DNA of 64,000 nt from Mesoplasma lactucae ATCC 49193. GTDB taxonomy: Bacteria > Bacillota_I > Bacilli_A > Mycoplasmatales > Mycoplasmataceae. The DNA lies in assembly GCF_002441935.1 (NCBI RefSeq), contig NZ_CP023668.1, positions 124,001 to 188,000 of the forward strand. The letters are read 5' to 3'. The notes beneath the pieces were generated by a model. The model worked only from the letters and a program-made list of their open reading frames with translations. It did not search any database and was not told the DNA's origin. A program made the position numbers and the translations under genes. Positions 1-55,240 of the stretch are shown here, piece after piece. The stretch's first letter is position 1. Each line of letters begins with the position of its first letter.

Positions 1-1536
1 GATTGAAATAGTCCAACTGTTTCTGGCTATAGCTATGGAAGAGATTATAAGAGTGCTTTATATTCTGGGGCTTATTTACCAGATAAAGTTAACCCTTCTA
101 CTTCAATTAGTTTAAAGAAAAATAATAACTACTTTAAAGCCGATGAAACTTACATTAAAAAAATAATCTTAAACTATCCAAAAAACCAGACACCTTCAAA
201 CTTAGCTTTTTTATTTGAAACTAACGATTTATCATTAGCACCAATTTCTTCAACTGATACTCACTCTTGATACAAATACATTGGTAAAGGAAATAATACT
301 GAAACTGCTAAATTTGGTGGAGTTCACGATTCATTCTTAGGAACTCCGTCGACTTCATTCTTACTTTACAATTATGGATATAAAACAAATCCTGATTCTA
401 AAGACCAAAAACCAGAAGACGTATTACAAAATCAAGTTTTAGCTCAACAATCAACAAGAGCTTTAATCTCATATGGAATGGATAGAAGTAAGGCTGCTAA
501 ATTCTTCTCACAAGAACTAGATTCTTCTAAACCATCATCCGCACCATCATCATTATTAAGAAACGTTTATACTACACCAAACTTAGTAAGTGATAATGGA
601 AAAGATTATGTTGAATATATTCAAGATGAATATTCAAAAGAATTTGGACAAAGTAAACCTTCAACTTCAGGATTTAACCCTAAAGGAGATGGAGTAATCT
701 TACAAGATGGTAGTGACGCTTATAAAGAAAATGACGAGTTCGCTTTAAAAACAATTACAGATCCTCAACTTAAACAACAATTCATTGATGCTAAAGAGAA
801 CTACGAAGCTAAAATGCAAATCTTAATGAAACAAGTTAGAAAAGATTCTAAACTTGGTGAAAACCAAACTGTTTCATTCAACTTCTTAGCAAATGGTTCT
901 GATAAAACCACTTTAAACCCAAGATTAAGAGACATGTTTGACTCATTTAGTAATCTTAAAAATAACCCGATTAAAATTAATGTTATGGAATCACAAGACA
1001 GTGGAGATTATTCTACTATTCAACGTACTCCAACTTGAAACATGATGATTGCTGGATGATCACCAGACTATGCCGATCCTTCAACATACTTAAATACAAT
1101 CGGATATGGTGGAGATTATGGAAGTTACAATAACTTAACAAAAATTATTTCAAAAGATAAAACAACTGGTAAATTAAAAGGAAACAATAAGGCTTTTGAT
1201 GCTTTAGCAACTGATTTACAAAGTTATGGCGATGCTTTAAATTTTGCAAATAAAGAATTTGATATCAACACCCGTTTAACAAGTTATTCAAAAGCTGAAA
1301 CCCTAGCTTTATATCAAAAACAATTTATTCTACCAATGTTTATTAAAACACCGGTAGAAGCGCCAGCACTTTCATACTTAGATCAATTCACAAGACCAAG
1401 TGTTGCTTATGGAACTTGCTTTACTAGAATGTCTGGAGTAAAAATGACTCCAAAACTTTGAACCAAAGAACAATATAACCAACATAAGGCCGAATGAGAA
1501 CAAGGCGTAACTGATGCCAATAAACCAAAACAATAA
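1..1536 (+). CDS. oppA: Oligopeptide ABC transporter substrate-binding protein, C-terminal part (5' end outside window)
   Basis: An open frame (TGA read as Trp) enters from the left edge and ends at TAA 1534-1536, giving 511 visible residues. It contains the stretch GWSPDYADPSTYL near residue 352, a hallmark of the C-terminal lobe of SBP family 5 (OppA/DppA) proteins. These are surface lipoproteins that hand peptides to an OppBCDF importer. The start, signal peptide and lipobox lie outside the window, so oppBCDF is probably upstream. A long hairpin terminator follows directly. The insert-rich, mollicute-type sequence makes the substrate uncertain; peptide is the family expectation. Confidence 0.85.
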
Positions 1537-1549
1537 TTAATAAAATGGA

Positions 1550-1600
1550 AATTATTCCAAAAAAGTTCAAAAAAAATGGAACTTTTTATTGGAATGATTT
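1550..1600 (+). terminator. Intrinsic terminator after oppA
   Basis: A long imperfect hairpin with arms ATTATTCCAA..AAAAGTTC and GAACTTTTTATTGGAAT is followed by a T-rich tract. It lies just past the oppA stop codon. Confidence 0.7.
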
Positions 1601-1676
1601 TTATTTGTAACTATTTCAAAATAAGAATATTATAAAAGTGTGGTTGTTAATCACATGTTAATTTATTTCATAATTT

Positions 1677-1682
1677 TATACT
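1677..1682 (+). promoter_or_regulatory. -10 box of candidate small RNA
   Basis: TATACT ends 5 bases before G1688, exactly where the closing helix of the candidate RNA begins. No convincing -35 box is visible. Confidence 0.5.
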
Positions 1683-1687
1683 TTAAT

Positions 1688-1848
1688 GTTAGGCGATAAA
1701 AATAATAATATTTTTGTCTTTGTGATATAAAACTCATTTTATAACTTGTTAACTATTTCCCTTAAAATTAAACGATTAAATCGTTCTTATCCGATGCCTA
1801 ACATCTAGTACTTCGAAGAACAGCTCTTTCCCGGCTGTTCTTTTTTTT
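1688..1848 (+). ncRNA. Candidate structured small RNA, family unknown
   Basis: This 161-base element lies in a 410-base gap between oppA and ftsK and has no coding frame. Its first bases GTTAGGC (1688-1694) pair perfectly with GCCTAAC (1796-1802), and the helix continues with GATAA against TTATC after a small bulge. An inner hairpin (AACGAT/ATCGTT) lies just inside. A strong terminator stem GAACAGC/GCTGTTC followed by eight T closes it at 1818-1848, and a -10 box sits correctly spaced in front. It is not recognisable as SRP RNA, tmRNA or RNase P by conserved motifs. A 6S-like RNA or a mollicute-specific RNA is possible. It could also be an ftsK leader, but the terminator argues for an independent transcript. 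Confidence 0.55.
1818..1848 (+). terminator. Terminator of the candidate small RNA
   Basis: Perfect stem GAACAGC (1818-1824) with GCTGTTC (1834-1840), extendable by AA/TT, followed by TTTTTTTT. Confidence 0.85.
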
Positions 1849-1946
1849 GCGTTTTTTTGAAAAATAGTTTCAGATAGAAACAATTAAGAAAATGGCGTAA
1901 AATCTAGTAAAATAGTTATTAAAGACTATGTAGGTGAAAGATAAAT

Positions 1947-4655
1947 ATGCGAAAAAAGAAAATTAAAGAAATTTCTGGGTCAAATACTGATGGGAGCATT
2001 TTGACTAGCAAGAATTATAACGATGATCGAACAATCATCTTTCAAACAGAGAAAAAACCTCACAAAAAAGATTCAATAGCCTGGTTAGTAGGCTCAATTA
2101 CCTTCTTTTTACTTTTAGTATTATCAGTTGGTAGGTTTTTAACAATAGGAGCATTTTTAGATGATATTTTCTTCAACTTCTTATTTGGTTGATTAAAATA
2201 TCCTGTTTATCTCTTATTATTTGCTTTTGATATCTCGATTTTGGTTGGAATTAAATTCAGAATGAAGAAAAGTTTTGTATTCATGATTCTAGCCATTACC
2301 TTTTCAATAGCATGAATTATTTCAACTTCATTATTATTGAACTTAGATGTTCATAAAGAAGATGGAATAAAGCTTTGAAATAAAGATATTTTTCCAAAAT
2401 CAGTTAGTGTCTACTCACAGAATTGATATGATAACTCAATTTTAGGTACAACCTTCCGAGACGAACCTGGACACAAAAAATATCTGATTTATCCAAGTTA
2501 TGGATATGTGAACTTATATCAAGGTGGAGGATTCATTGGAACTTTCTTAAGTGGAATCTTTGGATATTTAAGTTTACCCGGAAGCTTAGTTTTGGCTTTC
2601 TTCTGTTTATTCTTATCACTTGTTTGATTTTTAACAGGAACACCATTTTTCCTATTCTATTCAAAAGAAAAAAGAAAAGGAAAAAGAGTTCGTGTTTTAC
2701 CTTTAGCTTATAAAAATAATCCTCATGTTAATGGACAAGAAGCTGATAAAACTCCAAAACCATTTATTGAAGATGATGTTGAAAGAACAGATAGACCAAG
2801 ACAAATTGGTCCAAAGAAATCGTTAGCTGATAGTATTGCTTGAAATGAACCAGATGATGATGACTTAGAAACATTTTCAGTTTTAAGAGATAGTGATGAA
2901 ACTGATTATGAAAATGTTGGTAAAAAAATGTTAGAAGAACATGTTCCAGAAAAACCAGCACAACCAACAGTTAGTTTAGATACTAAAACTGATGAACCAA
3001 TTATTGATGATACTTTAGAAACATTTGATTCTTATACTCAAGATTCGATTCATGTTGATAATCTTGATGATTCAATCTTTTATGATGAAATTATGAAAGA
3101 TGAAGAACCAGAACAAAACGATAAAACTGAATATGATTCATTTACTTTCGATGATTTAGATAGTGAGACTCTTGCTACAATTCAACAATTAGAAGAAGAT
3201 GAAACTATTTCAAAAACAGTTGGTAATGACGCTTATCAATTACCAAGTTTAGATCTTTTAAATGATGTGAGAACTGATCCAAGAGTTATTAAACTAAATG
3301 AAGATAATGCCAGACAAAAAGCAGAAGCAATTAATCAAACTTTTGCTGAATTTAAAGTTAATGCTAAAGTTGTTAATACAATAATTGGTCCTGCTGTTAC
3401 TAAATTTGAAATTAAACCTGATAAAGGAACTAAAGCAAACTCAATTGCTAACTTAGAAGCTGATTTAAAACTTGCTTTAGCAACTCAAAATATTCGTATT
3501 GAATCACCAATTCCTGGTAAAAGTTTAGTTGGAATTGAGATTCCAAACGTTAAACCAACAATGGTTGGTTTAAAAGAAATCTTAAGAGATTTACCATCGA
3601 GTGATGCTGATGACAAACTAATCTTTGGATTAGGAAAAGACGTTGTTAATAAATCTATTTTTGGTGATATTCAAAAAATGCCTCACTTACTGGTAGCTGG
3701 AAGTACAGGTTCTGGTAAATCTGTTATGACTAATACTTTAATTACTTCAATTCTTTTAAGAGCAAAACCAAGTGAAGTTAAATTATTATTAATCGATCCA
3801 AAACAAGTTGAATTAGCGATTTATAGTGATGTTCCTCATATGTTAGCTCCTGTTATTTCAGATATGTCTAAAGCTACAAGAGCTTTAAATGTTGTTGTAG
3901 CTGAAATGGATCGTCGTTATAAATTATTTGCTGAAGGTCGTGCTAGAAACCTTGAAGGATATAATGCTAAACAAAAGGATCCAAAAGATAAAGTCCCATA
4001 CTATGTTGTTGTAATTGATGAACTTGCAGATTTAATGATTACTGGCGACAGAAAAGAAGTTGAAGATGCCATTCAAAGAATTACTCAGATGGGAAGGGCT
4101 GCTGGAATTCACTTAATAGTAGCAACTCAAAGACCTTCAGTTGATGTTATTACTGGAGTTATTAAAGCAAATATTCCAACCAGAATTGCTTTTAGAGTTT
4201 CTTCTGGAATTGATAGTCGAACAATTCTTGATGCATCTGGAGCTGAAAACTTAACTGGTAAAGGAGATATGTTATATCGTGCTCCAAATACTACTGATTT
4301 ATTACGTGCTCAAGGAGCTTATCTAAGTGATGAAGAAATTGATCGTGTTGTTGATTGAGTATGTCAACAACAAGATAAGAACTATAATAAAGCTTTTACA
4401 GAACTAAATAGCAAAGTTGCTAATAACAACGCTAATAATGGTAAAGAACATGATGAATTATTTGAAGAAGTTAAACAATTTGCTATTAATGAAGGAGCGA
4501 TTTCAACTTCATTAATTCAAAGAAAATTTAACATTGGTTATAATCGTGCTGCAAATATTGTTGATGATTTAGAAGCAAACCAAATTATTGGTCCACAAAA
4601 CGGTTCTAAACCAAGAGAAGTCTACTTAAAACCAGACCAAGAACGAAGCTTATAG
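1947..4655 (+). CDS. ftsK: DNA translocase FtsK/SpoIIIE
   Basis: The 902-residue protein moves DNA at the division septum. About four membrane segments lie in residues 45-230, followed by an acidic linker (residues 270-420). The motor has Walker A GSTGSGKS at 585-592 and Walker B VVIDELADL around 687-696, and ATQRPSVDVITG is the usual motor sequence. The last ~65 residues form the winged-helix gamma domain (DELFEEVKQFAINEGAIS...). The ATG at 1947 follows AGGTGAAAG. Several in-frame TGA codons encode Trp. The linker is short compared with E. coli FtsK and fits the SpoIIIE-like proteins of Firmicutes. A terminator follows at 4681. Confidence 0.95.
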
Positions 4656-5398: not shown

Positions 5399-6796
5399 AT
5401 GCGCGAATCAACTTCTGATAACTTAATTAAATATTTAAACACCCAAAGAAAAAAGTTCTTAAATACAGTTTATATTAACCTTGTTTTACTTACAGGGTTA
5501 TTTATTTTTTTAACATTAAATATTTATTCATCTGTGAAAGATGTTAATAATAGTGCTCCTGACCGTATTTTAATTTATGTAACTTTAGGCTTTTTAATAC
5601 TTTGAAGTAATTGATTCTTTTTAAAGAATTTAATTGGTTCAATTGTAATTAAGAAGTTAGAAAAACTTCTTTCTTCAGATAAAGTAACTGCTTTAGATTT
5701 ATCAAGATTTCCATTATTTTGAATTTTTTCTGGAACTTATTATCATTTAATTGAAGAAGAATTAGATAAACTTATTGATAAGTTTGATTTACATCAGAAA
5801 AAAGAAAAGGCAAACTTAATTTTCTTAAACTTTAAATTAGGTTTTGTTTCTTTCTTCATTTTGTTATGAGGAATTTCATATTATGTTTCAATGGTGATTT
5901 ATTTTAAAAATTCAGATTTTTCATCTCATTGAGAATTAATCTTCGGATTAGTAATGATGATTGCAGCTTTTTTAATTGTTTTTATTTTTACAATTCCAAG
6001 ACAAATTATTATTAATAAAAAATTAAATGATTTAGAAAAACAAAATCTTGATGACTATGATTATTATGAAAATAAACGTTTCTTTGCTATGAGAACTACT
6101 TTAGAAAAACTTCATAAAACTAAAGAAGTAGTTAAAGAAACAAAAGCTGTTGTTAAAGATGGTAAAGATTTAATTAACGATAATAAAAAACTTGTTGAGG
6201 ATTTAACAAAACAAGGAGCTAATAAAGTTGAAATTACAAAAGCTTTATTAGATAAATATAAACCATTTGTTAAAAACTTATTAGAAGATTTTATTACTCA
6301 AAGAAAAGCTGAAATTGCTATAGCTGTTATTCAAAAGAAAAACGAAATTGAAACTAAAAAAGATCTTGCTATAAACACTATTAAAAATAACGTTCAAGAT
6401 GCAAAATTAAAAAAAGAATTAATTAAAACTACGAAGAATGATGCAAAATTAGCTTTAAAAGAAGTTAAAGAAAACAAAGAAGAATACCTAAAATTAATTA
6501 AGGAAAATCTTCCAATATTTGAGAAATTATTGGAAGATTTCCTAAAAAACCATGAAGATGAACTTTATGATTTTGTTGTTGAACAAATTATTGCCACAGA
6601 AAAAGTTGATGAAGAACGCTTCTTAAAGATTGCAAACAAAGCAAAACCATATGTTCAAGATGCTATTAAGCAATTTGTTTCTGAAAACAAAGAAGAAATT
6701 CTAACAACTTTAATTAATGGAAAAAATAAAGCTAAAAACACTAAACAAAATGTAAAAACAAAGATTACTGATAAAAAGGATAGCAAGAAAAAATAG
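5399..6796 (+). CDS. Membrane protein with four N-terminal TM segments and a long charged helical tail
   Basis: The 465-residue protein has two paired hydrophobic segments at about residues 21-45 and 60-85, and two more at about 140-165 and 180-200. From residue 230 to the end it is lysine/glutamate-rich and helical (KEVVKETKAVVKDGKDLIND), ending in a basic K-T/K-D tail. RBS AAAAGGAC precedes the ATG. Five TGA codons in the first 185 codons are Trp. The tail should lie in the cytoplasm. No enzymatic motif is visible and the function is unknown. uvrC starts 20 bases after the stop, so the two are probably co-transcribed. Confidence 0.8.
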
Positions 6797-10707: not shown

Positions 10708-10834
10708 GTTGAAAAAAGTTTCAACCGCTCTTTTTTATGTTAACAAGCAATTTTTAAGACTAAAGACAATTCAATTTGTTGAATGCTTTTAAATTCACAT
10801 AACAAGGCGAGTCTAGACTGGAGGAAATAGATAG
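10708..10834 (+). promoter_or_regulatory. 5' leader of rplU-prp-rpmA, possible L21 autoregulatory leader
   Basis: About 127 bases lie between the predicted start site and the rplU ATG, unusually long for this genome. It contains a hairpin ATTCAA-TTTG-TTGAAT and ends in the RBS TGGAGGAA. Firmicutes rplU operons are known to carry an L21 leader motif, so the position fits. I did not match the motif base by base. Confidence 0.5.
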
Positions 10835-19684: not shown

Positions 19685-19703
19685 AAAAGTGAAAAGAATA
19701 AAT

Positions 19704-19784
19704 AAGGGAGCTAGTAAACTGGCTGAGAGTTAGATGTGATCTAAGACCTATAACCTGATTTGGATAATGCCAACGTAGGAAAAT
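19704..19784 (+). ncRNA. TPP (thiamine pyrophosphate) riboswitch
   Basis: The THI-box landmarks appear in order: GGGAG at 19706, CTGAGA at 19723-19728, the ACCTGAT block near 19753, TGGATAATGCCA at 19761-19772 and ACGTAGGAA closing the element. This is the near-universal TPP-binding core. Two terminator-type hairpins follow before the transporter gene, so TPP most likely causes premature termination. Confidence 0.95.
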
Positions 19785-19838
19785 TTATTAAAAGATAAAT
19801 TTTTTTAAATGGCGCATTCTAATTTTGAATGCGTTTTT
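19781..19838 (+). terminator. Riboswitch expression platform with two hairpins
   Basis: AAATTTAT (19781-19788) pairs with ATAAATTT (19795-19802) and is followed by T's. CGCATTC (19813-19819) pairs with GAATGCG (19827-19833), followed by T5. The second is the more stable terminator; the first may be an alternative or part of the antiterminator. Confidence 0.75.
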
Positions 19839-55053: not shown

Positions 55054-55115
55054 GTTGCTAATAAAAACAATTATCTTTTAAAGTCTTTTGTTTGCTAGTA
55101 TGATTGAACTAAGAG

Positions 55116-55159
55116 AATTCTTAAAAGCCATTCTTATTTAGAAATGGCTTTTAAGAATT
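55116..55159. repeat. Hairpin element with 17-bp perfect arms
   Basis: AATTCTTAAAAGCCATT (55116-55132) and AATGGCTTTTAAGAATT (55143-55159) are exact reverse complements around a 10-base loop. The homologous place in copy A (near 53258-53271) reads ACTAAGAATTAAAG without it. Confidence 0.85.
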
Positions 55160-55240
55160 AAAGAACAAATAGATAAGAGTGATTTCTTATTTTTTTGTTT
55201 TCTCTTTATATAAAAAATAATAGATAAGGAAATAACTATT

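Follow-up and report, generated by a model that had tools for sequence, protein, structure and literature searches.

Does the gap between oppA and ftsK in Mesoplasma lactucae hold a gene of its own, and if so, what might its product do? A preliminary description of this locus, which lies in a 64,000-nt stretch of DNA analysed as a whole (the window), had proposed a free-standing structured RNA. To us the gap looks like the site of a real, folded, non-coding small RNA gene that is specific to its genus; the RNA, with the oppA terminator on one side and the ftsK promoter on the other, is probably free-standing, non-coding and structured, with a length of about 160–210 nt (Table 1), and we infer that transcription yields it as a separate molecule. 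Independence is supported by a terminator of its own, by neighbours set apart through the oppA terminator and promoter-like boxes before ftsK, by conservation with compensatory change in a congener, by the lack of any Rfam match and by the location of the housekeeping RNAs elsewhere in the genome.

A predicted structured RNA between two separated genes

The gene upstream, oppA, is the last of an oppBCDFA-like operon, whose upstream members oppB, oppC, oppD and oppF were named from gene order and by eye. Pfam searches of the downstream gene recover the FtsK alpha, motor and gamma domains, and these reading frames stay open only when TGA is read as tryptophan. The two TAAAAT boxes ahead of ftsK, a hexamer that also lies upstream of the RNase P RNA of this genome, fit the TAWAAT box reported for Mesoplasma florum, where no conserved −35 element accompanies it (PMC7745072).

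Table 1. Features of the oppA–ftsK region, in window coordinates; G001 is the congener used for comparison.
Feature	Position	Strand	Basis or remark
oppA, C-terminal part (solute-binding protein family 5)	1–1536	+	ORF with TGA read as W; Pfam PF00496, E 4.8e-12
oppA terminator hairpin, separating oppA from the RNA	1543–1606	+	MFE −23.6, z −8.12 (1540–1612)
Candidate −10 box TATTAT, start near 1638–1640	1628–1633	+	promoter scan 9/12
5′ hairpin GUGUGGUU-GUU-AAUCACAU (or DNA palindrome TGTGGTTGTTAATCACA)	1638–1656	+	folds in both species
Other candidate −10 boxes: CATAAT 1669–1674, TATACT 1677–1682	1669–1682	+	read from the sequence; no TGN extension
Closing helix, 5′ strand (UACU..AUGUUAGGC)	1679–1694	+	pairs with 1796–1809; perfect 15-bp helix in G001
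Inner hairpin 1	1695–1718	+	length not conserved, G001 having a 6-nt insertion
89-nt core, identical in G001	1704–1792	+	species alignment
Inner hairpin 2 (AUAUAAA/UUUUAUA region)	1726–1743	+	invariant; predicted fold
Single-stranded loop with CUAUUUCCCUUAAAA, invariant	1744–1770	+	27 nt; left unpaired by either species' fold
Inner hairpin 3 (AACGAU/AUCGUU)	1771–1785	+	invariant; predicted fold
Closing helix, 3′ strand	1796–1809	+	three G001 substitutions in 1796–1802, pairs kept, one compensatory with 1691
Intrinsic terminator, UUUCCC in loop, T run	1815–1848 (hairpin 1815–1843)	+	terminator scan; one C-G pair is U-A in G001
ftsK promoter-like −10 boxes, TAAAAT twice	1898–1903, 1908–1913	+	promoter scan
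ftsK	1947–4655	+	PF01580, PF17854, PF09397

After a 5′ hairpin, the transcript would form a junction of three hairpins and an invariant unpaired loop, enclosed by the long closing helix, and it would end in the terminator hairpin. The heart of the closing helix, proposed in the preliminary description, is where it had been placed, with GTTAGGC at 1688–1694 and GCCTAAC at 1796–1802, 101 bases apart; it grows outward by AU/AU to 9 bp and then by UACU/AGUA (1679–1682 with 1806–1809). Inside it the fold yields three hairpins, in keeping with the inner hairpin described earlier, and the strong terminator likewise holds up at 1815–1843, followed by T; this is the sole + strand terminator in 1200–2200, a range in which shuffled sequences average 0.3 (both strands). 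The RNA region folds with an MFE of −35.8 kcal/mol (z −5.48), and 1686–1804, with the terminator left out, still gives z −5.09. The target z of −4.83 in a scan of 119-nt control windows (both strands of the 64-kb window, 20 shuffles) is equalled by 30 of the 2,130, which places the fold in the top 1.4%, so that structure by itself is not unique and the fold alone is no proof. The strongest folding outliers of the window are 6426–6604 (z about −7.9, + strand), which sits within a coding region, and 55086–55235 (z −7.2/−6.7, both strands). By blast and by a covariance model built for this RNA (R1), the RNA is a single-copy element of its genome (G000; one contig of 837,471 bases).

A closing helix, a multi-helix junction and a terminator, with ftsK adjoining on the same strand in both species, are also what a cis-acting leader of ftsK would present, that is, a riboswitch or attenuator in which a junction-type aptamer is followed by a terminator. 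We nevertheless regard such a leader as improbable. No strong antiterminator is visible by eye, just a 6-bp GUUCUU/AAGAAC pairing; the closing helix does not overlap the terminator; and 103 nt, with two promoter-like boxes, separate the terminator from ftsK. The element is moreover missing from the ftsK upstream regions of 36 relatives from other genera (best score 13.4 bits). Of these 36, nine had both neighbours listed by the ORF scan; counted to the first possible start codon, six of the nine have a gap of 61–102 nt before ftsK, and the other three have gaps of 161, 191 and 283 nt.

Conservation in a congener

All conservation results compare two sequences, G000 and G001, the latter being the sole other genome of the genus compared. 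Gene order in G001 is the same (oppA–RNA–ftsK). Between the two species the proteins on either side are 46–52% identical (OppA 205/441 residues; N-terminal part of FtsK 194/375) and the spacers flanking the RNA on both sides align poorly, while stretches of 43 nt (1639–1681) and 89 nt (1704–1792) are identical. By blastn the RNA region is 89% identical over 1650–1847; the RNase P RNA of the same species pair is 78% identical, with a longest identical run, taken from the alignment, of about 25 nt. As far as this alignment goes, RNase P RNA, though essential, is the less strictly conserved of the two RNAs in the pair.

The substitutions that do occur respect the predicted pairing. All 9 pairs of the closing helix survive four substitutions, one pair being altered on both sides: GUUAGGC/GCCUAAC becomes GUUGGGC/GUCCAAU in G001, with one A-U to G-C change, two G-C to G-U changes and no pair broken. 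The terminator of G001 adds a C-G to U-A double change and a further pair altered on one side. Over the whole structure of 40 pairs, two differ at both bases and three at a single base, while none is broken; all 80 of 80 cells are paired (100%), against 41–59% with slid partners. Simple simulations put the chance that four random substitutions leave the whole closing helix intact at 0.031, and that three leave the terminator helix intact at 0.077. Two sequences make for a weak shuffle control, which is not decisive (150 of 500 shuffles were as good), and the compensatory change proposed as a check on the helix at 1688/1802 is borne out in the relative on that two-sequence footing. The G001 region folds with z −7.05 on the sense strand and −3.63 on the antisense strand, and its G-U pairs would make sense only on the + strand.

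Two readings in which the identical blocks reflect something other than RNA structure can be weighed here. The first is a conserved DNA element (an operator, or a replication or segregation site) whose folding is incidental; it would account for the near-palindrome TGTGGTTGTTAATCACA, the same in both species, and for identical stretches without covariation. We consider it very improbable, as the G-C to G-U and double changes suit a + strand RNA, a T-run terminator is present, and the palindrome pattern is not enriched genome-wide (forward matches 24 against 25 in the control, reverse matches 26 against 27). We accordingly rejected the palindrome as a regulon marker; its only match without a mismatch in the genome is 1639–1655 itself. 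The second is a gene for a short peptide, such as a type I toxin, and a 12-codon frame with a TTG start (LSLWYKTHFITC) is indeed shared by both species. That frame has no ATG start, and several other frames vary in length between the species, which makes a peptide gene scarcely credible; codon-level constraint on the frame is invisible, because it lies inside a wholly identical block.

A third reading accepts the RNA and takes it for a ribonucleoprotein RNA of housekeeping type, abundant and fixed in sequence by a protein, RNA polymerase or ribosome partner. Its stricter conservation, set beside the RNase P RNA of the two species, speaks for this, as does the conservation of stems, which base pairing would let covary. 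We hold it nonetheless to be rather unlikely: by sequence none of the other genera tested has the RNA, an odd pattern if it were of housekeeping type, and it has neither a 6S-like rod nor a known partner.

The 5′ end and promoter

The preliminary description had a −10 box direct transcription from position 1688. The box, TATACT, is present at 1677–1682, and a start at 1688 is doubtful and probably wrong; the promoter can be read in three ways, with candidate starts at 1638–1640, 1680 and 1688, and conservation favours another than the last. An earlier start is indicated because the closing helix continues outward beyond 1688 (1679–1682 with 1806–1809) and in G001 forms a perfect 15-bp helix (−17.9 kcal/mol, against −9.2 for the inner 9 bp), and because the identical block reaches back to 1639, the site of an 8-bp hairpin. 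The basal G-U pair of this hairpin becomes A-U in G001, and the near-palindrome at 1639–1655 is unchanged. The hexamer TATTAT (1628–1633) is kept in G001 while its −35 is not. Probably, then, the RNA runs from 1638 to 1848, about 210 nt, with TATTAT as its −10 box, a candidate promoter with neither a clear −35 element nor a TGN extension. As an alternative, 1639–1655 might bind an activator, its position being about −41 relative to the start at 1688, whose promoter would lack a −35.

Known RNA families and distribution

Covariance-model searches with Rfam bring no family to its cut-off at the locus, and the standard housekeeping RNAs sit elsewhere; the preliminary description had recognised none of them at the locus by eye. 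Under gathering and permissive thresholds alike, the locus gave only sub-threshold chance matches in both species, all of which we rejected: MicX (11.3 bits in both, gathering score 75), sbrA (15.2 and 13.2 bits, gathering score 45) and mir-202 (23.7 bits, E 0.0044, gathering score 51), the last spanning the terminator into the downstream spacer. The MicX and sbrA matches recur in both species because the core or terminator is common to both. Bacterial SRP RNA (RF00169; G000:C1:698095-698191, 60.3 bits), RNase P RNA (RF00011; G000:C1:197885-198248, 252.7 bits) and tmRNA (RF00023; G000:C1:615374-615796, 96.5 bits) map to other loci, and ARAGORN found no tmRNA in the window. 6S RNA forms an extended rod in which a central bubble separates two helices. 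The RNA at this locus would share with it the character of a small stable RNA with a closing helix, but a multibranch junction of three hairpins is predicted here in both species instead of the rod; the 6S model (RF00013) has no match at the locus or anywhere in the G000 genome, and matches 5 of 14 control genomes. Elsewhere in the window, a TPP riboswitch (19694–19799, 65.8 bits) and a ribosomal protein L21 leader (10713–10824, 38.2 bits) score above their gathering scores.

Searches beyond the genus drew on overlapping genome sets (40, 60, 60 and 41 genomes), the larger R1 searches running under stricter filters. With blastn (E 0.01), 24 of 40 genomes gave some match, which outside G000 and G001 amounted to AT-rich pieces of 19–64 nt. 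The R1 model (E 1) hit 11 of 60 genomes, scoring 197.8 bits in G000, 194.5 in G001 and at most 23.3 in the rest; none of the four best other matches, which we inspected, combines closing helix, core and terminator. Within the family, R1 (E 0.05) matched 3 of 41 genomes, none convincingly outside the genus. A pattern search allowing three mismatches matched 3 of 60 genomes, the third (G005) at chance level, since a reversed control also matches 2 of 60. An exact 20-nt core pattern occurs in four unrelated records among genome contigs and in none among viral contigs; R1 scores in those four are at most 18.2 bits, a value that in one record (L083) sits on the pattern match itself. Plasmids and phages gave no match to the RNA. 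A second blast match in its own genome (G000:C1:531958-532009, 78%) lies between other genes, resembles no such RNA by eye and was set aside as an AT-rich chance match. As far as sequence can tell, the RNA would be confined to the genus; a strongly diverged homologue would escape such searches.

Possible functions and related systems

Staphylococcus aureus RsaA and RsaE and Listeria LhrC have an intrinsic terminator and unpaired pyrimidine-rich CCC loops, and are not known to need Hfq. The RNA described here is like them in its intrinsic terminator and unpaired pyrimidine-rich CCC loops, and unlike them in lacking an Rfam sequence match and in being far more invariant, stems included. MCS4 RNA of Mycoplasma capricolum, attributed to Ushida and Muto, is reportedly an abundant small RNA outside the standard set. 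Likened by description only, both would be small RNAs of related mollicutes outside that set, but family genomes beyond this genus yield no convincing R1 match. Three papers (PMC3961350, PMC4132741, PMC9217828) deal with C-rich antisense sRNAs, with UCCC loops, in low-GC Gram-positive bacteria. Predicted sRNAs of Mycoplasma, as presented in PMC5088518, come from other species and are likened here by description, both they and this RNA being lineage-specific in Mollicutes. For M. florum, PMC7745072 mentions transcription starts in intergenic regions, shortly ahead of terminators, as possible small RNAs, and PMC5726471 reports two highly expressed non-coding RNA loci found in two Spiroplasma species, tmRNA and RNase P. 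Literature searches limited to open-licence papers turned up nothing on this RNA, a weak negative.

Our best guess is that the RNA, whose UUUCCCUU loop is invariant, may be a riboregulator. It would work in trans by offering the loop CUAUUUCCCUUAAAA to the Shine–Dalgarno regions of mRNAs or to a protein. The loop at 1744–1770 and the terminator loop each contain UUUCCC, and the second copy would be presented alongside the first. The opp operon would be the first mRNA target in view: in both species the oppB Shine–Dalgarno region holds an 8-nt perfect match, AAGGGAAA, to the loop. The oppB start regions of the two species (L105:1090-1122 and L106:1050-1083) have the purine stretch AAGGGAAAGGAA in common. 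When paired with 50 start regions from the window, the loop does not outdo its shuffled versions, and a match of at least 8 occurs in 4 of the 50. The oppB match is equalled nominally by 73 of 2,000 shuffles, a match to any opp gene in both species by 467 of 2,000 (not significant) and the mean of all ten opp genes by 167 of 2,000 (not significant). The oppB match is thus a lead only, since these target tests are not significant and the opp genes were chosen after the synteny had been seen.

Invariance inside the AU-rich stems is greater than a simple base-pairing sRNA needs, and because stems are as invariant as loops, a protein or ribosome partner is a serious rival. Given a free RNA, we tentatively put base pairing first and an RNA bound by protein or ribosome a close second.

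Mollicutes have few regulators and near-minimal genomes. In such a cell, an RNA present in one copy and more constant than RNase P RNA between two species with half-diverged proteins points to a role closely guarded by selection. The RNA is small, mapped to the base and has a clear predicted structure. It might even represent an undescribed RNA class of one mollicute genus, held under constraint above that of RNase P RNA as an essential or near-essential ribonucleoprotein or as a global riboregulator of a near-minimal cell, a reading that we consider doubtful.
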